The notes under the pieces: model-generated
Told to the model about the DNA's origin: nothing
Database searches by the model: none
What the model saw: the letters and a program-made list of their open reading frames with translations, nothing else
In this document: one piece after another, positions 7,818 to 52,923 of the stretch
Numbering within the stretch: position 1 is the stretch's first letter
How the letters are laid out: the number at the start of each line of letters is the position of its first letter
Assembly (NCBI GenBank): GCA_036268875.1
Contig: DATATI010000074.1
Coordinates: forward strand, 1 to 64,000
Source of the DNA: Polyangia bacterium
GTDB lineage: Bacteria > Myxococcota_A > Polyangia > Fen-1088
Direction: 5' to 3'
DNA: 64,000 nt
Made by a program: the position numbers and the translations under genes

Positions 7818-9395
7818 ATGCTGGCGCCTGGGTTCGAATGGTTCGTGGCCTGGCGCCACCTGCGCGATCCGGATCGACAATCGCGCAAGACGCTGTTCAT
7901 CGGCTTGACGACCATCGCTCTCGGCGTGGCGGCGCTGGCGCTGGTGCGGTTCGCCCCGTCGCTGTTCACCGTGCGCGTGGGCGATGCCATGGAGATTCTG
8001 TCCAGCCGCCAGACCGTGCTGGCCGAGAACGTGAAGATCGGCGGCTTCATCGCCGTCGGCGCCGGCCTGCTGCTGTCGATCCTGGGCGCGCTCTTCGCCA
8101 GCTTCACGGTGTTCACTGCGTTTTCGATCTTCGGCGTCTTCCTCGGCACTGGCGCGCCGATCATTGCGCTGTCTGTCATGTCTGGGTTCGAGGCCGATCT
8201 GAAGTCGAAGATCCGCGCCACCAAGGCCGACATCGTGGTCAGCACCGACGACGAGCACCCGTTCAAGGACTGGGAAGCCGTCGAGGCGAAGGTGAAATCC
8301 GTCGACGGCGTGGTGGCTTCGATGGCCTACGTCGAAGGCGAGGTGATCGTCAAACACGTCTCGAACCCGGCCGGCATGGGCATCATCCTGCGCGGCATCG
8401 AACCGCGCCGGGCCATGCAGGTGCTGGACCTGGGACGCACGCTGGTGGAAGGCAAGGTCGAGTACCTGCTGCACCCCGAACAGATCGCCACCGACGATCC
8501 GGATCTGCTGCGCCCGCTGGACGAACCGGACAAGGACGGCCAAGGTGGCAGCGAAGCGGGTAAGGCCAGCAAAGAGAAGCTGGCGCCCGCGCCGCGCCCG
8601 GTGCTGCCGGGGATTCTTCTGGGCGACGAGCTTTATGCCCGCACGCTGCGCGTCTACATGGGCAGCGACGTCGACGTGGCCTGCCCGATGTGCGGCGTCG
8701 GCCCCACCGGACCGATTCCCAAGATGCGGCCGTTCCGGGTGGCCGGGCATTTTTACACCGGCATGTACGAGTTCGATTCCAAGCTGGCCTACGCGCCGCT
8801 GGCCGACGTGCAGCGTTTTCTCGATATGCAAGGCGAGGTCACCGGCGTCGAGATCCGCACCCGCGACCCAGACCGGGCGCCGGCCATCGCCCAGGCCATC
8901 AGCGCGGTGTTAGGTCCAGGTTACGAAGTGCGCTCGTGGGAAGAGCTGAACCGCAGCTTGTTCATGGCCTTGAAGCTGGAAAAGATCGCCATGTTCGTGG
9001 TGCTGACCTTCATCGCCCTGGTGGCGTCGTTCTCGATCGTCTCGAACCTGATCATGCTGGTGACGGAGAAGGGCCGCGAGATCGCCATCCTGAAGTCGAT
9101 GGGCGCCCGCGACGGAGCGATCCTGCGCGTGTTCTTCGCCGAGGGCCTTTACATCGGGCTGCTGGGCCTGGCCCTGGGCCTGGCCTGCGGCATCGGCGGC
9201 TGCCTGGTGATCGGCCGCTATGGCCTGCCGCTGGATCCCGACGTCTATTACATCCAGAAGCTGCCGGTGGTGATGCGCGGGGGCGAGATCGCCGGCGTGG
9301 CCCTGGCCGCCCTGGGTCTGTGTTGCCTGGCCACGCTGTACCCGGCGTGGCTGGCGTCGCGCCTGCGGCCGGTGGCCGGGCTGCGCTACGAATAG
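7818..9395 (+). CDS. lolC: LolC/LolE-type lipoprotein-releasing permease, long form
   Basis: Inner-membrane permease of the LolCDE complex, which extracts lipoproteins for transfer to the outer membrane. The C-terminal FtsX-type domain has three membrane helices from about residue 385 to the end, with LVTEKGREIAILKSMGA, the coupling segment seen in Lol permeases. The periplasmic loop starts after SVMSGFEADLKSKI. At 525 residues it is about 110 longer than a typical LolC (about 400). About 85 extra residues with two additional hydrophobic segments lie between the N-terminal ALxxL region and the usual first-helix end. The loop also has an acidic Gly/Lys linker and a CPMCG pair before GPTGPIPK. 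Only one permease is present, so the complex may be a homodimer of this protein with LolD. Confidence 0.88.
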   Translation: MLAPGFEWFVAWRHLRDPDRQSRKTLFIGLTTIALGVAALALVRFAPSLFTVRVGDAMEILSSRQTVLAENVKIGGFIAVGAGLLLSILGALFASFTVFTAFSIFGVFLGTGAPIIALSVMSGFEADLKSKIRATKADIVVSTDDEHPFKDWEAVEAKVKSVDGVVASMAYVEGEVIVKHVSNPAGMGIILRGIEPRRAMQVLDLGRTLVEGKVEYLLHPEQIATDDPDLLRPLDEPDKDGQGGSEAGKASKEKLAPAPRPVLPGILLGDELYARTLRVYMGSDVDVACPMCGVGPTGPIPKMRPFRVAGHFYTGMYEFDSKLAYAPLADVQRFLDMQGEVTGVEIRTRDPDRAPAIAQAISAVLGPGYEVRSWEELNRSLFMALKLEKIAMFVVLTFIALVASFSIVSNLIMLVTEKGREIAILKSMGARDGAILRVFFAEGLYIGLLGLALGLACGIGGCLVIGRYGLPLDPDVYYIQKLPVVMRGGEIAGVALAALGLCCLATLYPAWLASRLRPVAGLRYE

Positions 9396-9583
9396 AGATC
9401 GTGGGCAACGCGTCCTAAGTCCGCCAAGTCTCAATGCTTGTCGTGAGACTGTCGGCGTTGACACCTGGGGGGGCGGCGACTACTTTGGCGGCCCCTATGA
9501 GTCCGGTCGCAACGCCTGCCGTGCCTGCGCTGGCGGCTGTCGGCCACAGTGATGTGGATCGACACCGCCGCGGAGGCGCGCAC

Positions 9584-10252
<669 letters not shown>

Positions 10253-10262
10253 CGCGAACCCG

Positions 10263-12749
<2,487 letters not shown>

Positions 12750-12784: not shown

Positions 12785-13339
12785 ATGGCACGTTGGTTGG
12801 CACTCGGTTTCTTGCTGTTGGCGTCAAAGCCCTTTCTGGCGCACGCGGAGGACGTCAAGCTGGGCTACGTCGACCTGCAGCGCGCGCTGAACGAGACCGA
12901 CGACGGCCGCAAAGCCAAAGAGGCTCTGAAGAAGGTCTTCGATCAGAAGCAAAAAGAGCTCGACGAGCAGCAGCAGGCCTTGAAGAAGGACATCGACGAC
13001 CTGGACAAGAAGCGAACCCTGCTGCCCGCCGACAAGGTGCGCGACAAGGAAGCCGAGCTGCAGGGCCGCATGCAGAAGGTGCAGCAGACGTATATGCGCC
13101 ACCAGCAGGATCTTCAAAGCAAAGAGCAAGAAGCCACCGCCAAGATCTTCGAGCGCATGACCCGCATCATCAACAAGATCGCCGTGGCCGAGAACTTCAC
13201 GATGATCCTGGACAAGACCCAGTCGGGCGTGGTCTACGCCAAGTCGCATCTGGATCTGACCAACGATCTCATTCGCCGCTACAACGCCGGCGAAGGCGCG
13301 GACAAGTCGGCGGCAGCGGCGCCCGCGGCCAAGAAGTAA
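12785..13339 (+). CDS. skp: Skp/OmpH periplasmic chaperone
   Basis: 184 residues with signal peptide (MARWLALGFLLLASKPFLAHA). The mature start KLGYVDLQRALNET is the usual Skp strand, followed by a long charged coiled-coil (about residues 50-120) rich in Lys, Gln, Glu and Asp, and a closing segment (FTMILDKTQSGVVYAKSHLDLT) that completes the trimerisation core. Skp trimers hold unfolded outer-membrane proteins for BamA. A strong AAGGAG lies 7 bases before ATG 12785, which rules out the longer in-frame starts inside bamA. The C-terminal Ala/Lys tail is unstructured. Confidence 0.95.
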   Translation: MARWLALGFLLLASKPFLAHAEDVKLGYVDLQRALNETDDGRKAKEALKKVFDQKQKELDEQQQALKKDIDDLDKKRTLLPADKVRDKEAELQGRMQKVQQTYMRHQQDLQSKEQEATAKIFERMTRIINKIAVAENFTMILDKTQSGVVYAKSHLDLTNDLIRRYNAGEGADKSAAAAPAAKK

Positions 13340-13364
13340 GCCGGCGCCAAGAAAGCTGCGCCGC

Positions 13365-13856
13365 GTGCTGGACATCCGCGATATCGAGAAGATTCTCCCG
13401 CACCGCTATCCGTTCCTCCTGGTCGACAGAGTCGACGAGCTGGACGACGAGCACATCGTTGCCGTCAAGCAGGTCACGCGCAACGAACCCCACTTTCAGG
13501 GCCATTTCCCCGGCCATCCGGTGATGCCGGGGGTCTTGATCATCGAGGCGCTGGCGCAGACCGGCGCCATCTATGCCGCGCGCCTGGTGAAGTTCGATCC
13601 GGACAAGCAGGTCGTCTATTTCATGGCTATCGACAAGGCCAAGTTCCGGCGGCCGGTGGTCCCTGGTGATTCGCTGCGCCTGGAGGTGACGCCGCTGCGC
13701 AAGGGTGGGGCGATCTGGAAGATGCGCGGCGAAGCCAAGGTAGGGGACGTGGTGGTGGCTGAAGCCGAATTCATGGCCAGCATCCAGCCGCGCCCGACTG
13801 GTCCCGCGGCCGTGGTCGCCGTCGCTGCCAGCGGCGACGACGGCTCCGGCGCCTAG
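13365..13856 (+). CDS. fabZ: 3-hydroxyacyl-ACP dehydratase FabZ
   Basis: 163 residues, hot-dog fold; dehydrates 3-hydroxyacyl-ACP in fatty acid elongation. It has the family start ILPHRYPFLLVDRV, the catalytic His in GHFPGHPVMPGVL and the catalytic Glu in IIEALAQTGA. It starts at GTG 13365, 25 bases after skp. A Pro/Ala/Gly tail of about 20 residues extends past the usual C-terminus. In most Gram-negative genomes fabZ sits between lpxD and lpxA; here neither is present. Confidence 0.96.
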   Translation: MLDIRDIEKILPHRYPFLLVDRVDELDDEHIVAVKQVTRNEPHFQGHFPGHPVMPGVLIIEALAQTGAIYAARLVKFDPDKQVVYFMAIDKAKFRRPVVPGDSLRLEVTPLRKGGAIWKMRGEAKVGDVVVAEAEFMASIQPRPTGPAAVVAVAASGDDGSGA

Positions 13857-13882
13857 CGATGGTCGCGGACGGGAGGCGTCGG

Positions 13883-15652
13883 ATGCGACAGAGCCTCCTT
13901 TTCGGGCTGGGCGTCATCGCGGCAAGCGGGGCAGGGGCCATCGCTTGCCGGCGAACGTCGCTGCTGCCCCGCTCGGACGGCGCGGCGGTGGTGGTGGCCC
14001 CGGCAGCGCCCGCCGGCGATCAAGGCGTCGCCTTCGCGCCCGAGATCGAACCGAACGACACGCTGCCGGCGGCCCAGAAGCTGACGTTCGACGCCGCGCT
14101 GACCCCGATCGGAATCAATGGCCACCTGGAACCGCCGACGGGAAAATCCCACGACGTCGATTTATTCCGCCTGACCATCGCGCCGGCGCCCGGCAACGAC
14201 GCGCCCGTCGCCGCGGACGCCTTGCCGGCGCTGCTGCGCCGTCGGCTGTCGGTCACCGTCGAGCCGGAGCCGGGGCTGGCGGTGATCGTCGACGCCCTGG
14301 ATGATCAAGGCCAGACCCTGATCGCCGCCGGCGGCGCTGGGCCCGGCGAGACCGACGGCTTTCCCAATCTGACGGTGGCGCCCGGGGTTTACTTCGTGCG
14401 GGTGCGCGCCGCCAGCGCCAGCAGCAGCGGCGGCTATCGGCTGGTGGCCCGTCTTTTTCCGCTGGAAAACGGCGAGGAGCGCGAACCGAACGGCAAGGCC
14501 GCGCTGGCCTCCGATGCGCCCGCGACCGGCGAGCTGGTCGGGTACCACGGCTGGCGCCACGACCAGGACTGGTACCGCGTGGCGCTGGCCGGGGTCCCGG
14601 AGGGCAGCGTCCTGGGCGTTGATCTGGAAGCGGTCCCCGGCGTGGCGGCGTCGCTGCTGGTGTTCGACGCCGCCGAGCGCAAGCTGGTCGAATCGCGCGG
14701 CCGCGGCGACGAGCGGGTGGCCGTCCGCAACGTGAAGATCGCGGCCGGCGATCCGCAGCTTTACGTCGTCGTGCGCACCGACGCCGGGCGCAGTGATTCC
14801 GTGCGTTACGATCTCCGCCTGCGCACCGAACTGCCCAAGACCGGCAGCGAGCTGGAACCGAACGACGATCCCGCCCACGCGCAGACCATCGCCGACGGCG
14901 AGACGCTGGGATTTCTCGGCCGCGGCGACATTGATGTCTATCGCTACGCTGCCCCGCCCACGCCGGCCGAACTGGACATCGAGCTTGCGCCGCCGGAACG
15001 GGTCGACGCCAAGCTGGAGGTGCTGCGCGCGGCGGATGATCATCAGATGGGAACCCTGGGAAGGTTCCCAAACCCTCCCGCCACGGACTCCGCTCGGGCT
15101 AAGCCCGAGCTCCGTCCACGCGAGTTGCTGTTGGTGCGCGCCGACGCCGGCAAGCGCCACGAGGCGGAACGCATCCCCAATCTTTTTTCGCCGGGCGGCG
15201 GCGCGTTGCTGATTCGTCTCTCCGCCGGCAAAAGCGACGGCAACACCGACGAGCCATACCGCTTGACCATCAGCAGCCGCGCCCCGGAGCCGGGTGCCGA
15301 GCACGAGCCCAATGCGACCACTGCCACGGCCACGGCATTGCCGGTCGGTCTGGCGGGCAACGGTTTGATCTTCCCGCGCGGCGACGTCGACGTCTGGAAG
15401 ACAGCGTTACCCGCAGGAGCCGCCAGCGCCACGGTCACAGTCACCGGCGTGGCCGGCTTGATCCTGGACGTGCGCGTCCTCGCCGCCGATGAACACGAGC
15501 TCAGGCGCTTCAAGGTCGCGGGCGCCACGCCCATCCCCACGGCGGTGGTCACCAGCGGCAGTGGCTGCTGCTTGGTGCAGATTCGCGATGCCTCCGCCAA
15601 ATCTGCGGCGCCCAACCCGCGCGATCGCTATACGCTGACGGTGGCGCCGTGA
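13883..15652 (+). CDS. lipoprotein with four PPC-like beta-sandwich units
   Basis: 589 residues of unknown function. The start at ATG 13883 has GGGAGG 6 bases upstream; an in-frame ATG at 13859 has none. The signal peptide ends in a lipobox-like AIAC. Four repeats then begin EPNDT, EPNGK, EPNDD and EPNAT, each followed 25-35 residues later by a DVDLF, DQDWYR, DIDVYRY or DVDVWKT strand. This is the signature of bacterial pre-peptidase C-terminal (PPC) domains, small beta-sandwiches usually attached to secreted proteases; here they make up the whole protein. The third unit carries an unusual palindromic insertion (15049-15115). Its stop overlaps the next gene's GTG, and it follows fabZ, so an envelope role is likely. 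Confidence 0.75.
   Translation: MRQSLLFGLGVIAASGAGAIACRRTSLLPRSDGAAVVVAPAAPAGDQGVAFAPEIEPNDTLPAAQKLTFDAALTPIGINGHLEPPTGKSHDVDLFRLTIAPAPGNDAPVAADALPALLRRRLSVTVEPEPGLAVIVDALDDQGQTLIAAGGAGPGETDGFPNLTVAPGVYFVRVRAASASSSGGYRLVARLFPLENGEEREPNGKAALASDAPATGELVGYHGWRHDQDWYRVALAGVPEGSVLGVDLEAVPGVAASLLVFDAAERKLVESRGRGDERVAVRNVKIAAGDPQLYVVVRTDAGRSDSVRYDLRLRTELPKTGSELEPNDDPAHAQTIADGETLGFLGRGDIDVYRYAAPPTPAELDIELAPPERVDAKLEVLRAADDHQMGTLGRFPNPPATDSARAKPELRPRELLLVRADAGKRHEAERIPNLFSPGGGALLIRLSAGKSDGNTDEPYRLTISSRAPEPGAEHEPNATTATATALPVGLAGNGLIFPRGDVDVWKTALPAGAASATVTVTGVAGLILDVRVLAADEHELRRFKVAGATPIPTAVVTSGSGCCLVQIRDASAKSAAPNPRDRYTLTVAP
15049..15115. repeat. in-frame palindromic insert within the PPC lipoprotein gene
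   Basis: Two inverted repeats in tandem. GGGAACC (15049-15055) pairs with GGTTCCC (15063-15069) across a 7-base loop. GCTCGGGCT (15092-15100) pairs perfectly with AGCCCGAGC (15102-15110) across one base, extended by ACGGA (15083-15087) with TCCGT (15111-15115). The insert keeps the reading frame and encodes a Pro/Arg/Lys-rich stretch unlike the rest of the domain. The second hairpin resembles the one at 33058-33076 after ftsH, which suggests a dispersed repeat family. Confidence 0.6.
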
Positions 15653-16317
15653 GCGGTCGGCTTCGCGGCATCGCCCGCCCGCTGGCCGCGGTCATCTGTC
15701 TCTTGGTTGCCGGCTGCGCCCATCCGCCGCCCGGACCGGCGGCCAGCGTCGCCGCCTTCGCCGCCGCCGCCGATAGGGGCGACTACAAGACCGCGTACGC
15801 GCTGACGTCGGCGGACTACCAAAAACGTGTTCCGGTGGCGGCCTTCCGGCTCGAACTCGACGCGCGCGCGGTCGACGGTCGTTCGCTGGCCCAGCGCTTC
15901 GCCCCGCGGACGCCCGGCCTTGCGCGCGTGACCCTGGACCTGGCCGACGGCGAGACACTGCCGCTGGTTCAAGAGGGCGGCACCTGGCGGTTGGATGCGC
16001 CGTCCCTGGAGCCTTTTCCACGCCGGACGCCGCGGGCAGCGTTGCGATCATTCGTGCGCGCGCTGGAGCAGCGGCGCTATGACGTGTTGGTGCGCTTCGC
16101 ACCCGGTCGCTATCGCGCCGGTTTGACCGCCGAAAAACTGCGGCAAATGTGGGAAGGCGAGCACAAGGCGGACAATCAGAAGCTGTTGGCCGAGCTGCGC
16201 GCCAACCTGGAAGCACCGATCGTCGAGCTAGGTGACGAGGCGCACATGCCGTACGGCGACCACGTCGTGCGGCTGGTTCGCGAGGACGGCGCCTGGACCA
16301 TCGTCGATCCCGACTGA
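15649..16317 (+). CDS. lipoprotein of unknown function
   Basis: 222 residues. The signal peptide has a textbook lipobox (LLVAGC). The rest reads as two similar alpha/beta halves: AAFAAAADRGDYKTAYALTS in the first and ALRSFVRALEQRRYDVLVRF in the second, each followed by a beta-rich part ending LPLVQEGGTWRLD and VVRLVREDGAWTIVD. That is the helix-then-sheet pattern of NTF2-like lipoproteins, apparently duplicated. The GTG start overlaps the stop of the PPC lipoprotein gene (GTGA at 15649-15652), so the two lipoproteins are probably made together. I do not recognise a specific function. Confidence 0.75.
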   Translation: MSGRLRGIARPLAAVICLLVAGCAHPPPGPAASVAAFAAAADRGDYKTAYALTSADYQKRVPVAAFRLELDARAVDGRSLAQRFAPRTPGLARVTLDLADGETLPLVQEGGTWRLDAPSLEPFPRRTPRAALRSFVRALEQRRYDVLVRFAPGRYRAGLTAEKLRQMWEGEHKADNQKLLAELRANLEAPIVELGDEAHMPYGDHVVRLVREDGAWTIVDPD

Positions 16318-17310: not shown

Positions 17311-19920
17311 ATGGTGGAGAGTGCTGGGCTATCCATGAAGGGGCTTTGTGGGGCGGCATTTGTGGGGCGGCGGCGGGAGCGGGAAGAACTGGACGCGGCG
17401 CTGGCCCGGGCGGCGAAGTTTCGCGCGCCGCAGATGGTGACGATCCTTGGCCCGCTGGGCATCGGCAAAAGCCGCCTGCTGCGCGAATGGCTGGCCGGCA
17501 AGACCGGCGCCGGCCTGCGCGTGGTCAGCGCCGCCGCGGCCGACGACGCCGGCTCCGACACACCCGCTTACAGCCTGCTGGCGGCGCTGCTGCGCGATCG
17601 CTTCAGCCTGACGGCGGACCTCACCGGCGACGAAGCCGTGGCGCACTTCCGCAGCGAATTGCAGCGGGTGTTCGGCGATCGCCGCGTTGCCGAGGTGGCG
17701 GCCTTGCTGGGCGGATTTCTGGGCTTCGAGATGCCGGAAAGCCCGCTGTCGCGCGCGCTGGCCGGCAAGCCAGAGCAGGGCGCTGACCTGGCGCGCGCCG
17801 TCCTCGGTCGCTTCTTCGAACAGGACGCCGCCGCCCAACCGCTGTGCATCGTGGTCGAGAACCTGCAGCGCGCAGATGAAGCATCACTTGAACTTTTCGG
17901 CAGTCTGGCCGGCGAGCTGGGCGAGGCGCCTATCGTCATCATCGCCACCGCTCGGCCCGATCTGCTGGTGCGCCGCCCCGACTGGGGCCACAAAGGAAGC
18001 CACGCGCGCCTTGATCTCGGCCCGCTGTCGCGCGCCGACCTGGACGTGATGACAAAGTCGATCCTCGACGCCCACGACGTGGCGACGGCGCTGCTAGATC
18101 GCGCGGCCACCGAGTCGGGCGGCAACCCGTTCATCCTGGAACAGCTACTGCGGGTCTATCACCAGCACGGCATCCTGGCCGCGCCGACCGGCGACGCCTG
18201 GTGGTTCGACTTTGATCGGGCGGCGCACGAATCGATGGTGCTGTCGCCCGAGCAAGCGGCGCACGCCCGCGTCGCCAAGCTGACCCCCGCCGAGCGAGAT
18301 GTCTTGGCCCGCGGCGCGGCCTTCGGCCCGGTGTTTTGGACCGGTGGCGTGGTGGCGCTGGGACGCCTGCGCGTCGAGCCGGCGGATCCCGCCGCCGTCT
18401 TCGGCCCCGACGCCGCCATCAGCGAGATTCGCCAGATCCTGGACGGTCTGGCCAGCCGCAACTATCTGGTGCGCCAGCCGTCGTCGTCGCTGCCCAGCGA
18501 CACCGAGTGGGGTTTCCGTCACAACCTGGAACACGAGCTGGTCGACGGCAGCGTCGATCCGGAGCTGATGCGCCGTCGACGGGGCTTCGCCGCGCAGTGG
18601 TTGGAAAGCCGCGCCGGCGACGGGCGTGAGGAACGGCTGGAGACCCTGGGGCATCTCTATCAGCAATCCGGCGACGTGCGCCGGGCGGCGTATTGCTTCG
18701 TCACGGCGGGGGCGCGCGCTCGCCAGGCGGCGCAGCTTGATCGGGCACGGCTGCTGTATCTCAATGCCATTCGCCTGTTGGAGATGGATGACGCCATCTT
18801 GAAGATGGACGCCCTGCACGCGGTCGGCGATCTGGCCGCCCGCCTTGGGCGCACGCGCGAAGCGGTGGTGCATTTCCAGGACATGCTGCGCGTGGCGTGG
18901 CGGCTGGATTTGCCGGCCAAGGGCGGTGTGGCTCACGATCGCATCGGCCGTTTGCACAGCACGCTGGGAGAGCATCACCAGGCCGTGGCCCACCTGGAGC
19001 TGGCGCGCACGCTGTTTCAAGCCGCCGGCGACCTGCCAGGGATCGCTTCGGCGCTAGATGACATCGGTCGGGTTCATTTCTTGAACGGCGCACCGGAACA
19101 GTCGCTGGAGTGCCACCGCGCCGCCCTGGCCGTGCGCGAGCGTCTCGGGGACCAGCGCGGGCGTTCGCTGGCTTTGGCCCGCATGGGGCAAGTCGAGCAC
19201 GAGAGTGGCGAGCTGGGCGCGGCCGCGGCGCACCTGCGCGAGGCGCTGGCCTTGCGCCGGCAGATCGGCGATCGCCAGGGCGTGGTGGCCTCGCTGCTGG
19301 ACGTAGGCAGCCTGGAACGCGACCTGGGGCACCTGGACGACGCGCTGGTGTTCCTGGAGGAAGGCCGGCTGTTGGCCCGCGACCTTGGCGAGCGATTGTT
19401 CGAGTGCAGCTTGAACATGGCCATCGGCGATTGCCACCTGGACGCTGGCCAGCCACGGGATGCCTTGCGCGAGTTTCTGCTGGCCAAGGACATCGCGCGC
19501 AGCTTCGGCGCCAAGCTGCTGCTGTCGGAAGCGGCGCGCGGCGTGGCCGAGTCCGAGCTGGCCCTGGGCAACGCCATCCGCGCCAGCGACGAGGCGCGCG
19601 CCGCCTTCGACCTGGCCCAACGCATCGGGGCGCCGCCGCTGGCGGGCGCGGCCCTGCGCGTGGCCGCCGCCGCCGTGCGCCTGGGCGCCCCCGGCGAATC
19701 CGACCTGGGCGGGGCGCGCGAGATGTTTGACCGCGCGGTCGAGGTCCTCAGCAACGCTGGCGCCGAGCTCGAGCTTGGCCGCACGCTGGCAGCTTACGCC
19801 GACTTCGAAGAATCCAGCGGTCGCCGGCAGGCCGCGGACGAGCTGCGGCGCCAGTCGACGCTGATCGTCGCCCGCGCTCGCCGCGGGGCGGCTACTTCTT
19901 CGCCGCGTCAGCCTTCTTGA
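17311..19920 (+). CDS. AAA_16-type P-loop ATPase with TPR array
   Basis: About 869 residues. FVGRRREREELDAAL starts an AAA_16/NACHT-like ATPase domain with Walker A GPLGIGKS and a Walker B-like CIVVENLQRADEASLELF (the usual ED is EN here). After a winged-helix-like region, residues from about 450 to the end form 8-10 tetratricopeptide repeats (for example LDDIGRVHFLNGAPEQSLEC). This is the ATPase-TPR half of proteins that in myxobacteria often carry an N-terminal Ser/Thr kinase or cyclase domain, or a C-terminal LuxR domain. None is present here. The start is ATG 17311 or 17335; neither has a good ribosome site. The 3' end overlaps the opposing DUF4340 gene by 29 bases. Confidence 0.8.
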   Translation: MVESAGLSMKGLCGAAFVGRRREREELDAALARAAKFRAPQMVTILGPLGIGKSRLLREWLAGKTGAGLRVVSAAAADDAGSDTPAYSLLAALLRDRFSLTADLTGDEAVAHFRSELQRVFGDRRVAEVAALLGGFLGFEMPESPLSRALAGKPEQGADLARAVLGRFFEQDAAAQPLCIVVENLQRADEASLELFGSLAGELGEAPIVIIATARPDLLVRRPDWGHKGSHARLDLGPLSRADLDVMTKSILDAHDVATALLDRAATESGGNPFILEQLLRVYHQHGILAAPTGDAWWFDFDRAAHESMVLSPEQAAHARVAKLTPAERDVLARGAAFGPVFWTGGVVALGRLRVEPADPAAVFGPDAAISEIRQILDGLASRNYLVRQPSSSLPSDTEWGFRHNLEHELVDGSVDPELMRRRRGFAAQWLESRAGDGREERLETLGHLYQQSGDVRRAAYCFVTAGARARQAAQLDRARLLYLNAIRLLEMDDAILKMDALHAVGDLAARLGRTREAVVHFQDMLRVAWRLDLPAKGGVAHDRIGRLHSTLGEHHQAVAHLELARTLFQAAGDLPGIASALDDIGRVHFLNGAPEQSLECHRAALAVRERLGDQRGRSLALARMGQVEHESGELGAAAAHLREALALRRQIGDRQGVVASLLDVGSLERDLGHLDDALVFLEEGRLLARDLGERLFECSLNMAIGDCHLDAGQPRDALREFLLAKDIARSFGAKLLLSEAARGVAESELALGNAIRASDEARAAFDLAQRIGAPPLAGAALRVAAAAVRLGAPGESDLGGAREMFDRAVEVLSNAGAELELGRTLAAYADFEESSGRRQAADELRRQSTLIVARARRGAATSSPRQPS

Positions 19921-21250
19921 GTTCGGTGGTCTTCACCAGCACGCGATCCAGCGACCACTTCGGTATGAGGTACGTGTCGGGCGAGGCGATCGACTGCACG
20001 TTGTAGCTTTGCTTGTCGGTGGTCTGATCGCCGATCTTCAGGCTGCACACGGAGGTCTTTGATTTCGCCACCACGGTGGCGGCCGGTTTGCTGAGGCCGG
20101 TGGCCTTGGGCGAAGGATCGTCGGCGAAGCCAGTGGCCTTCAAATCTTTGAAGGTGGCGGCCACGTTGGTGGCCTTCGCTCCGTCGATCTCCAGCTTGGC
20201 CGGCTTGGTCGCCTTCCACACCCCCTTGTCCTTGGCCAGCGTAAACGACTCGGCACCGTGGGAGACGACGATCTCGGTCAAGTCGGGATCGACGATGTCG
20301 CAGACGGTCTTGTCCTTGAAGTCGATCGGGCGCTTGAACACGTTGGTGATGTTGTACTTCTTCACCAGAAATACCTGCGGCTCGGTGCCGTTCTTCACGT
20401 AGTAATCGTCTTCGCCCTTCTTATTGCCGACCAGCGCCGTGACGGTCTTGCCGCCCTTGAGGCCGACGGTGACGGTCAGAGCCGGGTTGGTAAGGCCGGT
20501 CTCCTGCGGCGTGGCGTTGTCGGCGAAGTCGCTGGCCTTCAGCGACGACAAGGTGGAGATGAGCGTACCGGCGACGCCGTTGTCGGGCTTGTCGATCTTC
20601 ACCGACGATTCGGCGATGGTCCACGGCTCCTCGGCGCCGCCATCTTTTTTTGCCCCGCGCTTGAGCTTGATGGTGCCGCCGGTCTTGCTCTTGATGTCGA
20701 TGGTCTCGGCGTCGCCCGCTGCGAAGGTGATGATGCTCTTGTCGCGCCAGTCGGTGGCCGATTTGTCGAAAGTGTACTTGGCCGCGCCGGCCATCAACCA
20801 GATCTGGTCCTTGCCTACAGCCCGCACCATGGTGCCGGCGCCCTGGCCCTTGCCGATGATGAGGTCGGCCAGCACGGTGTCGCCTTTCTTCGCCGTCACC
20901 CGCAGGCCGTTGTCAGCGACCTCGTATTCGGCCTGCTTTGCCTTCTGATCGCTGACGATGCTGCTGAATTCCATTTTCTCCAGGCCTTCGAAGGCCTGCT
21001 TGGCGGCGGTCTCGTCGGCCTTGTAGTTCGTCGGCTGCAGCACTTGGTAACTGTCGCCGGTCTTCTTGATCACCGCCGTGACGCCGCCCTTCAGCACTGC
21101 CAGGGTGTCGAAGTCACCGGCCTTGAGGCGCGGCACCGGCCGCGGACGCTCGCCTACCACCTCGCCCTTTTCGGGCTGGCGCAGAGCGAAGAACGTGATC
21201 AAGCCGAGGACGACGAAGGCGGCGAAGGCGATCTGTGTCTTGCGATTCAT
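19892..21250 (-). CDS. DUF4340 domain protein, membrane-anchored
   Basis: 452 residues. An N-terminal membrane anchor (IAFAAFVVLGLITFFAL) is followed by a large periplasmic beta-rich part with two similar halves: SFTLAKDKGVWKATKPAKLE recurs in spirit at both ends. DUF4340 proteins are found next to GldG-type ABC auxiliary proteins and are thought to work with them outside the membrane; the substrate is unknown. It is last in a four-gene operon with ABC ATPase, permease and GldG-like protein, 61 bases after gldG. Composition is rich in Lys, Thr and Ala. Confidence 0.85.
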   Translation of the reverse strand: MNRKTQIAFAAFVVLGLITFFALRQPEKGEVVGERPRPVPRLKAGDFDTLAVLKGGVTAVIKKTGDSYQVLQPTNYKADETAAKQAFEGLEKMEFSSIVSDQKAKQAEYEVADNGLRVTAKKGDTVLADLIIGKGQGAGTMVRAVGKDQIWLMAGAAKYTFDKSATDWRDKSIITFAAGDAETIDIKSKTGGTIKLKRGAKKDGGAEEPWTIAESSVKIDKPDNGVAGTLISTLSSLKASDFADNATPQETGLTNPALTVTVGLKGGKTVTALVGNKKGEDDYYVKNGTEPQVFLVKKYNITNVFKRPIDFKDKTVCDIVDPDLTEIVVSHGAESFTLAKDKGVWKATKPAKLEIDGAKATNVAATFKDLKATGFADDPSPKATGLSKPAATVVAKSKTSVCSLKIGDQTTDKQSYNVQSIASPDTYLIPKWSLDRVLVKTTELKKADAAKK

Positions 21251-21311
21251 GGCAGAAGGACGTCCTTGTTTGGATTCGAGGGAACAGCGTCAGTGTCGGC
21301 GAAGCAGATCG

Positions 21312-22967
21312 TCAGAGCTTCTGACCCTGGCGATTGGCCCGGCGCACGCGCCAGCGCAGGATGCCGAAGGCGCAGAAGATGACCGGCAGACCGAAGATGT
21401 TGCCCCACTTGGCCAGCGCGACCTTCTGTTCGGATTCGATCTGGATCGGCCGGGCGGTGATGGTCTTGGCGCGCACCGGGGTCAGCGCTTCATCTTCCAG
21501 CGTCCAGCTGATGGCGTTGAAGAGCAGCTGGGCACCGTTCTGATAAAGCTGCATATAGCGGGCGAGCTGCACGTACTCGTCGGAGGCGAAATCGGAATCG
21601 CCGACCACCATCAACCGCACCGGTTTGACTGATTCGGACGGCGTGAGGCTCGGGTCGGGCGGGGTGGACATGCCAGGCGCGGCCGGCATCGGCGACGGGA
21701 ACGCGCTCTTGAGCGGCCCCAGATACGCGTAGGCCAGGCCGAACGGACCTTTTTCTTTCTTCGGTTCAAGCTGGGCGGCGGGCGAAAAGAAAAAGAAGCC
21801 GCTTTCCTTCCAGCTCTGGTCCGACGACTTGGCCAGCGTCCACAGCGTGCCTTGCGCCGGCTTGCCGCCCTTGAGCGGGCCCACCAGCTCGACCGAGCTC
21901 GCGAACGGGAAGACCAGCGCCCGCACGCCACCCAGCAGCGACTGCTCTTTCGGATCTTTGGTCTCGGGCGTCTCCACGCCGACGAACACTTCCTTGTTGG
22001 CCAGCATGCGCCGCCCGCCGAGATCAATCGGTCCGGGCGCGTTCTGCTTGTCGAGAACGAAGTCGCCGCCGATCTTGAACCCGTACGCGGCGAGGTTCTC
22101 GGTCAGGCCCGAATCATTCGGCTGCCCGACCTTGGGCATGCCGGGCATATCGGCCCCGCCGCGCGGCTGGCTCATCACCATGCCGTCGATGAGGAAGATG
22201 GCGCCTTTGCCCTTCATCAGGAACTTGTCGATCTCGCGGCGTCCCTTCTCGTCGAAGGCTTGCTTGGGGCCGGCCACCACCAGCGCGTCGACGTCGTCGG
22301 CGATGGCCGTCGTCGACGGGTTGACGGTGATGTCGTCGTATTCCTGCTCGATGGCGTGCTTGAGCGCCTGCAGCCCTTGGCTCAGGTCCAGCTCGCCGTG
22401 GCCGGTGGTGAAGGCCACCTTGCGCTTCTTCTGGGTCATCCGCTTGATCAGCGACGAGACCTGGTACTCCATGCCTTCGGCCTGGGCGATCTCCGGGATG
22501 GCCTGGGTCTGGCCGGCGTACTGGAAGCACAGGCCCAGGTAGTACGCGCCCACCTCGAACTTCTGCGAGCGCATCACCTGGATCTGCAGCTTGTTCACCT
22601 TGCAGGCGGTGGCTTCGTCTTCGATCTTCTTGTCGGCGCCCGGATCAGCGGCTTCGAAGTGCAGCTTGCCCTTCGAATAGGTTCGGTACTCGTCCAAAAG
22701 GTCGCGCACGTACCGGCTGACGCTGGCCAGCTCGGGCGGCAGATCCTTGGAGATGTAGGCCTTGATCGTCAGGTAGTCAGGCAGGTTGCGGACGATGTCC
22801 TTCGACGCCGGTGACAGCGTGTAGACCTTGCTCTCGGTCAGGTCCAGGCGGCCGAACACCCGGGTGCCAAGCAGGTTGACGACCACCACGGCGCCGATGA
22901 CGAAGGCCGCGTACAAAAGCGCGTTCGACGCCGAGGCGCGTTTCTTTGAGTTCGAATCGTTGGACAT
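21312..22967 (-). CDS. GldG-family ABC transport auxiliary protein
   Basis: 551 residues. An N-terminal helix (ALLYAAFVIGAVVVVNLLG) leads to DLTESKVYTLSPASKDIVRN, the conserved opening of the GldG/ABC_transp_aux family. A periplasmic Rossmann-like domain follows (AFTTGHGELDLSQG, then MVVGDSDFASDEY), and a second C-terminal helix (IFGLPVIFCAFGILRWRVRR). In Bacteroidetes GldG belongs to a gliding-motility ABC complex with GldA and GldF; outside that phylum the role is unknown. The ATG at 22967 sits two bases after the permease stop; an alternative GTG is at 22979. Confidence 0.88.
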   Translation of the reverse strand: MSNDSNSKKRASASNALLYAAFVIGAVVVVNLLGTRVFGRLDLTESKVYTLSPASKDIVRNLPDYLTIKAYISKDLPPELASVSRYVRDLLDEYRTYSKGKLHFEAADPGADKKIEDEATACKVNKLQIQVMRSQKFEVGAYYLGLCFQYAGQTQAIPEIAQAEGMEYQVSSLIKRMTQKKRKVAFTTGHGELDLSQGLQALKHAIEQEYDDITVNPSTTAIADDVDALVVAGPKQAFDEKGRREIDKFLMKGKGAIFLIDGMVMSQPRGGADMPGMPKVGQPNDSGLTENLAAYGFKIGGDFVLDKQNAPGPIDLGGRRMLANKEVFVGVETPETKDPKEQSLLGGVRALVFPFASSVELVGPLKGGKPAQGTLWTLAKSSDQSWKESGFFFFSPAAQLEPKKEKGPFGLAYAYLGPLKSAFPSPMPAAPGMSTPPDPSLTPSESVKPVRLMVVGDSDFASDEYVQLARYMQLYQNGAQLLFNAISWTLEDEALTPVRAKTITARPIQIESEQKVALAKWGNIFGLPVIFCAFGILRWRVRRANRQGQKL

Positions 22968-22969
22968 GG

Positions 22970-23680
22970 TCACTTCCACTTTCGCGATTCGAGGGACACC
23001 GTGGCCAGCAGCAAGCAGACCACCATCACCGAGACGTAATAGATCACGTCACGCGAATCGATCACGCCGCGGCTGATGTTCTCGAAGTGGGTGTCGATGC
23101 TGAGGAAGACAAACAGCGGCTGCAGCAGCTCGGGCACGAACTGGCTGATGCGCCCAAGCAGGTAAAGCGCAAAGCAGATGGCGAACGACACGATAAAGGC
23201 CACGATCTGATTGCGGGTGTACGACGACGCCATCAAACCGATGGCCGCGTACGCGCCGCCCATCAGAACCAGGCCGACATACCCGCCGATGGTCGGGCCC
23301 TTGTCGAGAGGGCCCATGCTCTTGACCGTCAGGGCGAAGACCAGCGTCAAGGCCAGCGCGGTGCAGACCAGTGCCACCGCGGCCAGGAACTTCCCGACCA
23401 CGATCTCCCAGTCGCGCACCGGCAGGGTGATGAGCAGCTCCAGCGTGCCGGAGCCTTTCTCTTCGGCCAAAAGGCGCATGGTGATGGCCGGGACCAGGAA
23501 CATGAAGAGCAGCGGCATCACGCCGAACAGGCCACGCATCTCGGCCTGCTTTTCAATGAACAGCTGGGTGAAGAACAGGTAGCCGGTGATGATGGTGAAG
23601 ACGGTCACCACGATATAGGCGACCGGCGAGTTGAAGTACGTGCGGATCTCGCGTTTCGAAATGACCAGCGCGGGGCTCAT
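22970..23680 (-). CDS. ABC-2 type permease, GldF-like
   Basis: 236 residues with six predicted membrane helices. It opens ALVISKREIRTYFNSPVAYI, the normal start of GldF/NatB-like permeases, and contains LLAEEKGSGTLELLITLPV, the ABC-2 coupling helix region. The ATG at 23680 overlaps the stop of the ATPase gene (ATGA, 23677-23680), indicating translational coupling. With the ATPase it should form the core of the transporter, and GldG plus DUF4340 the periplasmic part. Confidence 0.9.
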   Translation of the reverse strand: MSPALVISKREIRTYFNSPVAYIVVTVFTIITGYLFFTQLFIEKQAEMRGLFGVMPLLFMFLVPAITMRLLAEEKGSGTLELLITLPVRDWEIVVGKFLAAVALVCTALALTLVFALTVKSMGPLDKGPTIGGYVGLVLMGGAYAAIGLMASSYTRNQIVAFIVSFAICFALYLLGRISQFVPELLQPLFVFLSIDTHFENISRGVIDSRDVIYYVSVMVVCLLLATVSLESRKWK

Positions 23681-24639
23681 GATTTGGCTTCTTCTCCAGT
23701 GGTCAGGTTGCGGAACACGTCTTCCAGGCTGGCCGATTCGCGCACCAGTTCGAGCAGCGGCCACTTGTTGTCGACGGCGGCGCGGAAGATGGCCTTGCGC
23801 AGATCGTCGCTGGCCGCACCGTCGATGGCGAAGGCGTGCGCGCCGGCTTCGCCGCTGACCGTCTCGCAGCGCGAGACGCCGCCCAGGCTGGCCAGGCGAT
23901 CGCGGATGGCGTCCTTGCTGACGCCGTTCGATTCGACCACCACCCGGTAGCGGCCGCCTTTCTCGCGCGCGCGCAACGCTTCCGGCGTGCCGTCGGCGAC
24001 CAACCGCCCGCCGCTGATGATCAAGATGCGGCTGCAGGTGGCCTGGACTTCCGGGAGGATGTGCGTCGACAGGATGACCGTCTTCTCGCGGCCGATCTCT
24101 TTGATCAGGGTGCGAATCTCGGCGATCTGATTGGGGTCGAGACCGCTGGTCGGTTCGTCCAGGATCAAGATATCCGGATCGTGCAACATCGCCTGGGCCA
24201 GGCCGACGCGCTGGCGAAAGCCTTTCGACAGCTCGCCCACCAGCTTGCCGGCGACCTCGGCCAGGCCGCAACGGCCGCCGATTTCTTTGATGCGCGCCTC
24301 GCTGCCGGCCTGGTTCATTCCGCGCATCTCGGAGGCGAACTGCAGGTACTCGCGCACCGTCATGTCGCGGTAGATGGGCGTGTCTTCGGGCAGGTAGCCG
24401 ATCCGTTTACGAACCTCTAACGATTCGTCGAAGACGTCGAAGCCAGCCACCTTGGCCCGCCCGGACGTGGGGGCCAAAAAGCAGGTCAGCATCTTCATCG
24501 TGGTGGTCTTGCCGGCGCCGTTCGGACCAAGAAAACCAAGGACCTCGCCCTTGTGGACGTTGAACGTGACCTTGTCGACCGCGCGGGTGGGGCCATAGTC
24601 CTTGGTCAGACTCTCGACCTCTATCATCACATCCGACAT
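23677..24639 (-). CDS. ABC transporter ATPase, GldA-like
   Basis: 320 residues. Walker A is GPNGAGKTTT, the Q-loop region is IGYLPEDTPIY (typical of GldA/NatA-type ATPases), the signature is LSKGFRQRVGLAQ, Walker B is ILILDEPTSGLDP and the H-loop is LSTHILPEV. About 90 further residues form the C-terminal domain common to this group. First gene of the four-gene operon. TGAGG lies just before the ATG. It powers the partner permease; the exported or moved substrate is unknown. Confidence 0.93.
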   Translation of the reverse strand: MSDVMIEVESLTKDYGPTRAVDKVTFNVHKGEVLGFLGPNGAGKTTTMKMLTCFLAPTSGRAKVAGFDVFDESLEVRKRIGYLPEDTPIYRDMTVREYLQFASEMRGMNQAGSEARIKEIGGRCGLAEVAGKLVGELSKGFRQRVGLAQAMLHDPDILILDEPTSGLDPNQIAEIRTLIKEIGREKTVILSTHILPEVQATCSRILIISGGRLVADGTPEALRAREKGGRYRVVVESNGVSKDAIRDRLASLGGVSRCETVSGEAGAHAFAIDGAASDDLRKAIFRAAVDNKWPLLELVRESASLEDVFRNLTTGEEAKS

Positions 24640-41803: not shown

Positions 41804-41970
41804 GGATGCGGTTATTTCCCACGGTTGAAGCCCAACTGCAATGGCAACGGCAAAGTTTGCAATTGGCCCGGCTCTTGGCCGCAGCCCTAAATGGATGATT
41901 TCCCGAAACCGGGCGGCAGAGTAATGTAGTCGACGGTCGCGGTCCCAACTTACTTGTGGTGAATAAACCG

Positions 41971-44019
41971 ATGATGCAATTGCTGCGTGGCCTTGGTCTG
42001 TCTGTAGTCCTTTCGGTTCTGCCGGCCGTCGCTTTCGCGCAAGGCGGGCCGGAAGAGGAACCCATGCCGCCGAACTTTCAGGACGCCAAGCCCCTGTCAG
42101 CGGCGAAATCACCAGCCGAGGAGACATTGGCCACGTCGCCGGCCCCCGTGATGCCGGTGGCGACCGGCGACGCGGATTCGTACTTGCCCTCGCTATCGGG
42201 ACCGATCGGTCTTTATCGCGTCTCGACCGCCGAGGTCGGGCCACGCAACCACCTGCGGCTGGCCCTGCACGGCGAGTTCTTCAGCTCGTCGCAGTTGCTG
42301 GTGGACGGAGATCAGGACAAGCGCCTGCTTGGTGAATTCACCTTTGGCTTCACGCCCCACAAGAACGTCGAGGTCTTCGGCGGCCTGATGTCGTCGAGCA
42401 ACCGGAACCGTCGCGTCTCGGAAGAAGGCCGCCGTGATCCCGAGCTGATCAAATCGTTCGGCGATCTGGTACTGGGGGGCAAGGCGGCGTTCCCGGTGGC
42501 GACTGGAATCAGCGTTGGTTTCGAAGGCGCCTTCAAGTTCCTGTCGTCGATCTCGGACCTGTCGTTCTCGGCGGATTCGACGTCGTTCTGGCTGGGGCCG
42601 TTGATGACGGCGGACCTGCGCGCGCTGGCCGGGGTTCCGCTGCGGGTGCACGTCAACGCCAATTTCTACGCCGACAACTCGCGCAACCTGCACGACCTGA
42701 ACGATCCCACGGTCACGCAGGCCACGAAGTGGGTGGCGCAGTTCGCCTACGGCATGGGCGCCAGCCGCTTCCGTACCGCGCTGGGCGTGGACGCCTTGTT
42801 CGACAAGCTGCCGGTGCCGCTGCAGCCGTTCGCCGAATACCATGCCGAAATCGTCACCGCCGACGCTGACTCGTCGTTCGCGTCCTACATGCCGCCGGCT
42901 TGTAACCTGCCGGGTGGCAACCTGTGCAAGGACAACCGCGACCAGCAATGGTTCACCTTGGGCGCGCGCGCCCGGGTATTGAAAGGCCTCACCGCGGATG
43001 CCGGCGTGGACATTCGTATTCGTTCGGTGGGCTTTCCTTATGGACCACCGCTGCCGCCGTACAACGTGGTGTTCGGCCTTTCGTACCCGCTGGACATCGA
43101 CGCCTTTCGCCGCCCGGTGATCGTCACCATCGAGAAAGAACCACCGGCGCCAGTCGAGGGCACCGTGGGTGGCCAGGTCAAGAGCAGCAAGGACGGCGCG
43201 CCGGTGCCGGGCGCCATCGTCGCCGTGACCGGCCGGCCGCGCGCCCGCGTCGCCACCGACCCGGATGGTTCCTTCCAAAGCGTGCCCCTGGCCCCGGGCC
43301 CGGCTGATCTGGAGGTCTCCGCTCCCGGCTTCGAGTCAGCCAAGGTCACGGCCAAGGTCGTCGCTGGCCATCCCATCGACGTGGCGGTGGCTCTGACACC
43401 GAAGCTCGCCACCGGCAATGTGCGCGGCAAGATCTCCGACGACAAGGGTCAGGGCCTGCAGGCGTCGTTGAAATTCATGGGCCCGGACAACTTCGAGGCC
43501 CGCTCGGATGCTGCGGGTCTGTTCTCGGCATCGTTGCCGATCGGGCCGTACAAGGTCGTGGCAGAAGCGCCGGGCTTTCCGACCAAGGAGGCGCTGCTGG
43601 ACGTGGCGGCGGCCCAGGACAAGCAGCTGGACATTTCGCTGCGGAACCGTCCGGCCAACCCCAATGTCACCCTGAATGACACTGGCATTGCCCTGAAGCG
43701 GCCGTTGCGCTTCGACGCCGCCGGCAAGTTGCAAGCGGCAGCGCAGCCGGGGTTGGATGGGGTCGCGGACGTCATGGAAGATCACGGCGAGATCCGCACG
43801 CTGCGGATCGAAGCCAACTGGGATACCACCGCCGGCGCCAAGGCCAAGGACCTGACTCAGTCCCAGGCCGACGCGGTGAAGGCTTATCTGGTGAAAAAGG
43901 GCGTGCCCGAGGGCCGCATCGAGGCAGTGGGGATGGGTTCGGAGAAGCCCCTGGTGCCAAACATCGGGCCGGCCAGCAAGACCAAGAACCGCCGCGTCGA
44001 CCTGATTGTCGTCAAATAG
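41971..44019 (+). CDS. OmpA-type outer-membrane barrel protein with Cna/carboxypeptidase-like repeats
   Basis: About 682 residues. The signal peptide (LLRGLGLSVVLSVLPAVAFA) is clear. An N-terminal beta-barrel of about 300 residues ends near GLSYPLDI. Two carboxypeptidase regulatory-like beta-sandwich units follow (GTVGGQVKSSKDGAPVPGAI and VRGKISDDKGQGLQASLKF). The OmpA C-terminal peptidoglycan-binding domain reads LTQSQADAVKAYLVKKGVPE and ends NRRVDLIVVK. It should anchor the outer membrane to the cell wall. The start is ATG 41971, 41974 or GTG 41956; none has a good ribosome site. Confidence 0.85.
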   Translation: MMQLLRGLGLSVVLSVLPAVAFAQGGPEEEPMPPNFQDAKPLSAAKSPAEETLATSPAPVMPVATGDADSYLPSLSGPIGLYRVSTAEVGPRNHLRLALHGEFFSSSQLLVDGDQDKRLLGEFTFGFTPHKNVEVFGGLMSSSNRNRRVSEEGRRDPELIKSFGDLVLGGKAAFPVATGISVGFEGAFKFLSSISDLSFSADSTSFWLGPLMTADLRALAGVPLRVHVNANFYADNSRNLHDLNDPTVTQATKWVAQFAYGMGASRFRTALGVDALFDKLPVPLQPFAEYHAEIVTADADSSFASYMPPACNLPGGNLCKDNRDQQWFTLGARARVLKGLTADAGVDIRIRSVGFPYGPPLPPYNVVFGLSYPLDIDAFRRPVIVTIEKEPPAPVEGTVGGQVKSSKDGAPVPGAIVAVTGRPRARVATDPDGSFQSVPLAPGPADLEVSAPGFESAKVTAKVVAGHPIDVAVALTPKLATGNVRGKISDDKGQGLQASLKFMGPDNFEARSDAAGLFSASLPIGPYKVVAEAPGFPTKEALLDVAAAQDKQLDISLRNRPANPNVTLNDTGIALKRPLRFDAAGKLQAAAQPGLDGVADVMEDHGEIRTLRIEANWDTTAGAKAKDLTQSQADAVKAYLVKKGVPEGRIEAVGMGSEKPLVPNIGPASKTKNRRVDLIVVK

Positions 44020-44899: not shown

Positions 44900-47353
<2,454 letters not shown>

Positions 47354-47397
47354 GTCCGGGATCTCCCTGTGGATGAGACCAAGTGGCCGACAAAACA

Positions 47398-47421
47398 AAG
47401 GCGCCCTCGGAGGGGCGCCTT
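47398..47421 (-). terminator. rho-independent terminator after the ExbB/ExbD operon
   Basis: On the minus strand AAGGCGCCC (47421-47413) pairs perfectly with GGGCGCCTT (47406-47398) across a 6-base loop, and the next bases read TGTTTTG. It stands 55 bases after the last ExbD stop. The first bases of the hppA transcript from the nearby promoter would start inside this stem. Confidence 0.7.
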
Positions 47422-47450
47422 GATATAACGAGATCGTTTCTTGAAGTAAA
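47422..47450 (-). promoter_or_regulatory. possible hppA promoter abutting the terminator
   Basis: On the minus strand TTTACT (47450-47445), a 17-base spacer and TATATC (47427-47422) give 4/6 matches each at optimal spacing. Transcription would begin near 47415, within the terminator stem, so the intact hairpin would form only in read-through RNA from the ExbD genes. Confidence 0.4.
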
Positions 47451-47475
47451 GCGAACGCGCGCCGCAGCCGTGGCT

Positions 47476-48036
47476 CTAATCCTTCGATTTCAGAACCAGA
47501 AGGCGATAGTTCGCATAACCGGCCTGACCACAGGAGTAGATGACCTCGGTCAGTAAGCGATACGGCGTGGTCTGGTCAGCGATCAGCATCAGCTGGGCGT
47601 CGAACTTTTGCCCGGTCAGCTCGGCGACCTTCTTTTCCTTGCGAGCGTGCTTTTCCAGAATGTCCACCAGCGGGGTGATGTAATAGCCGTTCTCGCCGTC
47701 GCGCTTGACCGCGGGATCAACCTTGCCGGCGTTCACCGGGGCGATGGCATCGCCCTCGACCAGGATGACCTTCTTGGTCACCGTCACGCTGACCGCCTCT
47801 TTGGGCTTGAGCTGGGTGATGGACTTGGGAACCTGCAGGTTCGAATCAAACGTGATGGTCGACGTCGACGAGGCAAAGCTCTTGAGCAGGAACACCAGGA
47901 TGATGGTCATCATGTCCATCATGGGGGTGATGTTCAGGTCTTTGATGACCTCGGGCTCGGCCAGCTTGCGGGCAAAAGATCGGATGGCCTTCTTGCCCTG
48001 AAGCCGGGTCATCGTATGCGCGTCACCGCCCGACAT
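47476..48036 (-). CDS. ExbD/TolR-like protein 2
   Basis: 186 residues. The cytoplasmic start is followed by LNITPMMDMMTIILVFLLKSF, the single helix of the ExbD/TolR family with the proton-path Asp (PMMD). The periplasmic domain is larger than usual, with a Lys-rich middle (EKHARKEKKVAELTGQKFDA) and the ending LMLIADQTTPYRLLTEVIYS. Together with the ExbB-like and first ExbD-like proteins it should form a proton-driven motor. The ATG overlaps the preceding gene's stop (TGATG). It is the last gene before the terminator. Confidence 0.88.
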   Translation of the reverse strand: MSGGDAHTMTRLQGKKAIRSFARKLAEPEVIKDLNITPMMDMMTIILVFLLKSFASSTSTITFDSNLQVPKSITQLKPKEAVSVTVTKKVILVEGDAIAPVNAGKVDPAVKRDGENGYYITPLVDILEKHARKEKKVAELTGQKFDAQLMLIADQTTPYRLLTEVIYSCGQAGYANYRLLVLKSKD

Positions 48037-48563
48037 CAGAGAATCCCCGCCGCGAACGCCACGTCCGGGAACAGGACCTTGCCTTCATCTGTCTGTCTCA
48101 TGGCATCCAGCGTGGCCACCACGACGTCGTAGGGAATGTTGGCGTCAGCGTTGAAGTTGGCCTTGGTCTCCTCGGCGTTGTCCTTGTCGGACTTGATCTC
48201 CAGCAGCTTGGAGGTCAACGACTTGTAATCATACTGGCCGCTGCCAAGCTTGGGGATCACCGGCAAGACGCCGCCAGACGCCGCCACGGTAAAGCCGCTG
48301 GCGCCAACCGAGACGGTCAGGTTCAGCGGCTTCTTGTCGGGCTGGTCGTCAGACGATGCGCCACCGCCGCTGGACAACGTCGGCACCGTGACGTTGACGT
48401 TGCCCAGGCCCACCTGGTTCACCACCGACGCCAGCAAGAAGATGATGATGTTGGTGACGATGTCCATGTAGGGGACCAGGTTCAGCTCGCCAGCCTCTTC
48501 CTCGATCTCCTCGTTGTGTTCTCTCATCCGGCGCGTGGCTGCCCGGACTTGGCTTCGCGTCAT
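48036..48563 (-). CDS. ExbD/TolR-like protein 1
   Basis: 175 residues. An acidic cytoplasmic start (EHNEEIEEEAGELNL) precedes LVPYMDIVTNIIIFLLASVV, the membrane helix with the conserved Asp of this family. The periplasmic part ends DANIPYDVVVATLDAMRQTD. It lies 40 bases after the ExbB-like gene and overlaps the second ExbD gene. GAGG sits about 8 bases before ATG 48563. Confidence 0.88.
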   Translation of the reverse strand: MTRSQVRAATRRMREHNEEIEEEAGELNLVPYMDIVTNIIIFLLASVVNQVGLGNVNVTVPTLSSGGGASSDDQPDKKPLNLTVSVGASGFTVAASGGVLPVIPKLGSGQYDYKSLTSKLLEIKSDKDNAEETKANFNADANIPYDVVVATLDAMRQTDEGKVLFPDVAFAAGIL

Positions 48564-48603
48564 GAAGGCCCTCGTCGCATCAGATGATGGGACGTTTGGT
48601 TGT

Positions 48604-49245
48604 TCACGCCTTGGCCGCGCCGCCCTGGGCGGATTCGGCCAGCAGGTTCTCCAGCTTCAGTGCGAACGCTTCCAGGTCACCGACCTGCTTCTTCGAGGCG
48701 GACGACAAGAAGGCGTGGGCGATGATGCAGGTGACGGCGATGCCGAGACCCATGGCGGTGTTGTTCAGCGCCTCCGAGATGCCTTTCGCCAGCAGGGCCG
48801 ACCGCTCTTCCGGTTTGGCGGCGGCGACGGCGCCGAACGCGCGAATCAGACCGACCACGGTGCCGAGGAGGCCGACCAAGGTGGCGATGTTGGCGATCGA
48901 CCACAGAATCTGGACGCGCTTTTTCAGAAGCGGGGTGACGTCGACCAGGGTCTCTTCGATCGCCTGAGCGATGGCGATCTCGCCGCGGTGAACGCGTTGC
49001 AGACCCGCGCGCGCCACTTGCGCCACCGGGGCTTCGGTCGCCGAGCACAGCTTGACGGCGCGGTCGATGTTGTTGGCCAGCACCAGCTTCCGGATCTGCT
49101 CCAGGAACGCGCGGGCGTTCACCGAGCCTTTGCCCAGAAAGAAGATGGCGCGGTCAACAATGATCGCCAAGGTGATGATCGACACCACCAAGTTGACGTA
49201 CATCAGGGTACCGCCTTGCTCTAAGAACTGGGCGAGTCCTTGCAT
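48604..49245 (-). CDS. ExbB/TolQ/MotA-like proton channel protein
   Basis: 213 residues with three membrane helices: MYVNLVVSIITLAIIVDRAIF, ILWSIANIATLVGLLGTVVG and MGLGIAVTCIIAHAFLSSAS. The LLGTVVGLIRAF segment and the loop before it are diagnostic of ExbB/TolQ. It energises the two ExbD-like partners from the proton gradient. A one-channel, two-ExbD set like this resembles the Agl/Tol-type motors of myxobacteria, some of which drive gliding; which one this is cannot be told. GGAGGAAGAG precedes the ATG. Confidence 0.9.
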   Translation of the reverse strand: MQGLAQFLEQGGTLMYVNLVVSIITLAIIVDRAIFFLGKGSVNARAFLEQIRKLVLANNIDRAVKLCSATEAPVAQVARAGLQRVHRGEIAIAQAIEETLVDVTPLLKKRVQILWSIANIATLVGLLGTVVGLIRAFGAVAAAKPEERSALLAKGISEALNNTAMGLGIAVTCIIAHAFLSSASKKQVGDLEAFALKLENLLAESAQGGAAKA

Positions 49246-49720: not shown

Positions 49721-49745
49721 CCGCGTCGCCGGCCAATCACCGTGG

Positions 49746-52720: not shown

Positions 52721-52923
52721 GGGCGCTGTCTTATCACGACCGCTCGCGCGCGGCTGCCCCCGACGGTGCAGGGTCACCTCCGTCGGTGGCGATTCCCAGA
52801 AAAGGGTCTTGATCGGTTTGCGCGGAGGAGGGACTTTAGCCACCCCGGAGCGCTGACGGGTCAGGCTGTCCGTCGGGCTATCCGCCGGGATCGAGATCTG
52901 GGAGAATTCGAACGGGTGAGGGA

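Follow-up and report, generated by a model that had tools for sequence, protein, structure and literature searches.

An outer-membrane biogenesis operon of a Polyangia bacterium without lpxD and lpxA suggests loss of the lipid A pathway

Lipopolysaccharide (LPS) is held to be the lipid that defines the outer membrane of gram-negative bacteria, and in most cases to be indispensable. Within the 64,000-nucleotide stretch of Polyangia DNA analyzed here (the window), fabZ follows skp directly in a cluster of outer-membrane genes, and the question is whether the missing lpx genes mark a lineage that lost lipid A, as an initial annotation based on the sequence alone had proposed. The explanation that we favor, with a probability of about 0.87, is that the cluster represents a typical operon for outer-membrane biogenesis whose lpxD and lpxA would have been excised in an ancestor, in the course of losing the entire lipid A/LPS pathway, from synthesis to export.

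The cluster and its spacers

The genes of the cluster lie on the forward strand in the order lolCE-lolD-bamA-skp-fabZ-lip1-lip2 (Table 1). bamA, skp and fabZ keep their canonical order, but lpxD (between skp and fabZ) and lpxA (behind fabZ) are missing, and lpxB is likewise absent from the cluster. The initial description of fabZ as standing directly after skp, with no lpxD, lpxA or lpxB, is thus borne out by the spacers and by the Pfam and NCBIfam identities of the genes. Since both spacers are very short and the lip1 and lip2 reading frames overlap by 4 nt, no space is left for lpxD, lpxA or an lpx remnant. Neither lip1 nor lip2 matched a Pfam or NCBIfam family. The outer-membrane assembly genes retained in the window are those of BamA, Skp, the Lol system and an OmpA-domain protein (41956–44016).

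Table 1. Genes and spacers of the window cluster, with the evidence for each assignment
Feature	Coordinates	Strand	Evidence
lolC/E-type lipoprotein-releasing permease	7818..9395	+	NCBIfam TIGR02212 lolCE E 1.3e-85, 287.8 bits (below cut-off 362); Pfam FtsX E 1.4e-15; syntenic in relatives
lolD-type ABC ATPase	9434..10252	+	Pfam ABC_tran E 1.8e-34; syntenic in relatives, 50–79% identity
bamA	10263..12749	+	NCBIfam TIGR03303 BamA 663 bits, above cut-off; five POTRA + Omp85
skp (OmpH-type periplasmic chaperone)	12785..13339	+	Pfam OmpH E 3.3e-29; ATG at 12785, GGAG upstream of start
skp-fabZ spacer, 25 nt	13340..13364	.	lpxD site in f59/f60 relatives (gap there ~1.05–1.09 kb)
fabZ	13365..13856	+	NCBIfam TIGR01750 FabZ 183.7 bits, above cut-off; motifs HFPGxPVMPG and IEALAQ
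fabZ-lip1 spacer, 2 nt	13857..13858	.	lpxA site in f59/f60 relatives (gap there ~0.9–1.0 kb)
lip1, predicted lipoprotein	13859..15652	+	Four EPND-type (pre-peptidase-C-like) repeats and lipobox-like AIAC, read by eye; orthologues 33–54% identical; synteny
lip2, predicted lipoprotein	15649..16317	+	LVAGC lipobox; weak NTF2-like matches; orthologues 29–54% identical in lpx-positive and lpx-negative relatives

As a chance control, LpxA was sought at 80 fabZ loci taken from a collection with one genome per species. A match was present at 75 of them, usually immediately after fabZ, and by this measure the skp-fabZ-lip1 arrangement is not due to chance. The five remaining loci include those of palsa_1153 (L062) and palsa_1104 (L063), which are the two nearest Myxococcales metagenome-assembled genomes (MAGs) of the set and fall outside the window's order on a LolD+BamA+Skp+FabZ tree, and locus L066, where a lip1-like gene also follows fabZ.

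Two further groups of genes, both on the reverse strand, were noticed elsewhere in the window. A DUF4340 protein, an ABC auxiliary protein (PF09822, GldG-like) and an ABC ATPase are encoded consecutively at 19892–24639, resembling a gliding-type ABC module. At 44903–52843, a membrane H+-pyrophosphatase adjoins an ExbB/ExbD/ExbD set (47479–49245) and two M16 peptidases (49749–52843).

Lipid A, LPS and sphingolipid genes across the order

The genome that contains the window (6.15 Mb in 95 contigs, 96.8% complete) was searched together with its order, 18 genomes in all, the relatives being 70–97% complete and many of them drafts, probably MAGs; a wider class sample comprised 59 genomes and the phylum sample used for LpxC 286. 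LpxC (PF03331), LpxB and WaaA/KdtA were not found in any of these 18 genomes, including the window's own, while control genomes were positive. LpxA (PF13720) was likewise found in 0/18 genomes of the order versus 12/59 in the class sample, LpxD (PF04613) in 0/18 versus 7/59, and the export permeases LptF/LptG (PF03739) in 0/18 versus 14/59, the LptF/G-positive families being approximately the same as the LpxA-positive ones. Because the LpxA, LpxD and LptF/G profiles match class members, they are shown to function at class level, and the absence from the order is specific. A complete lpx set elsewhere in the genome, for which the initial annotation had advised looking, was accordingly not encountered.

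LpxC occurs in 146 of the 286 genomes of the phylum sample, so that its absence is widespread and patchy across the phylum, and where the class has LpxC the protein is divergent. LptD (PF04453) gave no match in any of the 59 class genomes, those with LpxA and LptF/G included; its absence was therefore dropped as evidence, and LptD may have diverged in this class. A lone LpxA in an otherwise lpx-negative genome (G299 contig C410; L202:6344–7453, reverse strand) is alphaproteobacteria-like, lies away from fabZ and is probably a contaminant. At the start of the window, a hexapeptide-repeat protein (472–1431) is neither LpxA nor LpxD according to the genome-wide family searches.

Sphingolipids could stand in for LPS, as in Sphingomonas, cited in PMC11324152 as LPS-lacking sphingolipid bacteria. 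The same paper cites Keck et al. 2011 (doi 10.1074/jbc.M110.194209) for Sorangium cellulosum So ce56 as an LPS-lacking myxobacterium, and PMC10667739 cites this Sorangium paper for sphingolipids. Despite these precedents, substitution by sphingolipids is improbable here, although it is the best surviving of the alternatives. The window's genome holds no intact α-oxoamine synthase; its only candidate is a broken BioF-like gene (L061; contig C95:56184–57390, reverse strand) in four fragments in shifted frames with one TAG, of which relatives keep an intact copy. This broken gene may reflect either biotin auxotrophy or an assembly error. The other genomes of the order carry one α-oxoamine synthase each, except G016 with three, and most of the copies compared form one group. 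L055 and L050 are BioF-like, with bioF as best NCBIfam model just below its cut-off, and the best PDB match of L055 is also BioF; in G016, the NCBIfam scan identified L060 as Kbl and L053 as a BioF-like protein of unclear assignment. No scanned copy from the order reaches any NCBIfam cut-off for serine palmitoyltransferase. Strong class-wide hits to TIGR01825 were also considered as serine palmitoyltransferases and rejected, the four that were scanned being Kbl, one of them also by PDB sequence search.

With no serine palmitoyltransferase identified, the order is not expected to make sphingolipids by the known route. The sphingolipid suggestion of the initial annotation thus finds no support, and its analogy with Sorangium holds in one respect, that of a myxobacterium lacking LPS, and fails for the sphingolipid part.

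Comparison with relatives that keep lipid A

The fabZ neighborhoods of 40 relatives were compared with the proteins of the window. Families f59 and f60, from the same class, display the order lolCE-lolD-bamA-skp-[lpxD]-fabZ-[lpxA]-lip1-lip2. At the four lpx-positive loci L170, L173, L183 and L184, which also follow the canonical bamA-skp-lpxD-fabZ-lpxA order, the skp-fabZ gap is ~1.05–1.09 kb and the fabZ-lip1 gap ~0.9–1.0 kb; in L170 and L173, these gaps were read to hold the LpxD and LpxA reading frames. The window and its order share the gene order of this canonical cluster and differ from it by the removal of lpxD and lpxA. Among the 17 other genomes of the order, 15 have a skp-fabZ gap of 6–250 nt and a fabZ-lip1 gap of at most ~240 nt (between matched stretches), and the synteny is closed up in 16/18 genomes of the order, the window's included. 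The gaps are also closed in families f5, f7, f8, f58, f62 and f65, where both flanking genes are measurable. LpxD and LpxA occupy the canonical skp-lpxD-fabZ-lpxA places in f2 and f12; in f11, a greater distance separates lpxD-fabZ-lpxA from skp.

The initial annotation had two lipoproteins taking the place of lpxA. Synteny speaks against this: lip1 and lip2 lie downstream of lpxA in lipid-A-bearing f59/f60, which makes them old neighbors that moved up when lpxA went and rules them out as replacements. Throughout the class, this pair of lipoproteins (13859–16317 in the window) is conserved beside the Bam/Lol cluster, whether lipid A is present or not.

This synteny with lpx-positive relatives argues for loss rather than primitive absence, and the comparison of gene order indicates that an ancestor common to the order and at least six other families lost lpxD and lpxA in place. 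Together with the absence of the lpx, WaaA and LptF/G genes from all 18 genomes, it supports the original idea that the window belongs to a lineage that lost lipid A. Starting from an operon for a Lol transporter, BamA, Skp, LpxD, FabZ, LpxA and two lipoproteins, lpxD and lpxA would have been excised in place while the whole of LPS synthesis and export was lost alongside. The cells would still be diderm, FabZ being presumably retained for general fatty-acid synthesis, and their outer leaflet may consist of phospholipids or another non-LPS lipid together with lipoproteins, probably without ceramides from a canonical serine palmitoyltransferase.

A divergent or non-homologous pathway for a lipid-A-like glycolipid might go undetected by the profiles, given that the class LptD is already missed by its Pfam model and that LpxC, where the class has it, is divergent. 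We consider this slightly less probable than substitution by sphingolipids, because the other profiles do find members of the class, six protein families would all have to escape together, and LpxD and LpxA are missing from their syntenic places.

On the tree of LolD, BamA, Skp and FabZ, the order and families f5, f7, f8, f58, f62 and f65 form a single lpx-negative superclade (92/95), which is sister to the lpx-positive f59/f60 (100/100). Family f9, also lpx-negative, falls outside the superclade plus f59/f60, and all lpx-negative rows were united in just 1% of bootstrap trees. A second, independent loss in f9, which would bring the losses in the class to at least two, is likely on this topology, and the count is not certain because the branch that places f9 outside has a support of only 88/74. 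In f9 (L185, L188 and L193), a tandem skp pair stands between bamA and fabZ, where lpxD would be located.

On the LpxA tree, the LpxA of f59/f60 clusters with that of three families from its own class, f2, f11 and f12 (90/87), and apart from the other phyla sampled; it thus looks inherited, and a re-import of lpx genes into f59/f60 is unsupported. The same data bear on a scenario in which the class ancestor was devoid of lipid A and f59/f60, f11, f12 and f2 gained it. Many class families are without LpxC or LpxA, and simple parsimony would count few steps for such gains; however, we hold them for very improbable, given the canonical places of LpxD and LpxA in f59, f60, f2 and f12 (with the displaced lpxD-fabZ-lpxA of f11), the class LpxA forming one group apart from other sampled bacteria, and LptF/G tracking LpxA across families. 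Such gains would have to bring a pair of genes into one and the same pair of gaps several times over, which is improbable. Least probable of all is that lpx genes were missed in incomplete or badly binned genomes: the fragmentation and completeness values given above leave some room for this, but six protein families are absent from 18/18 genomes, closed-up synteny recurs in 16 of them, and the lone LpxA in the lpx-negative part of the sample looks like contamination.

Extent of the proposed loss and precedents

In-place loss of lpxD and lpxA as part of a loss of the whole pathway is thus the reading retained. A broader proposition is tentative, and we would sooner doubt than accept it as a whole: the entire order, and probably a larger clade, may build an outer membrane without lipid A or canonical sphingolipids, with an outer-leaflet coat undescribed for myxobacteria, LPS having been lost at least twice independently in the class. 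As sister families appear to present the whole pathway or its absence around the same syntenic site, they constitute a natural experiment on the dispensability of lipid A. Comparison across the class can reveal what leaves with lipid A (LptF/G) and what stays (BamA, Skp and Lol), and bears on what replaces LPS when sphingolipids are apparently not made either.

Sorangium is an earlier example of LPS loss among myxobacteria; what appears new here is the clade-wide extent, the clean excision in place and the apparent lack of sphingolipids as a substitute. So ce56 and, judged by its genes, the window's lineage are alike as myxobacteria without LPS, and differ in that Sorangium is linked to sphingolipids, whereas the window's order has no match for serine palmitoyltransferase. 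Sphingomonas is similarly a diderm without LPS, as the window's lineage would be, but it relies on sphingolipids, and the enzyme that starts their synthesis was not found in the window's order. Among other gram-negative lineages reported to lack Kdo2-lipid A genes are Spirochaetaceae and Anaplasma/Ehrlichia (PMC3087551). Members of the latter group are obligate intracellular bacteria, whereas the window's lineage, with genomes of 4.5–6.5 Mb, is probably free-living.
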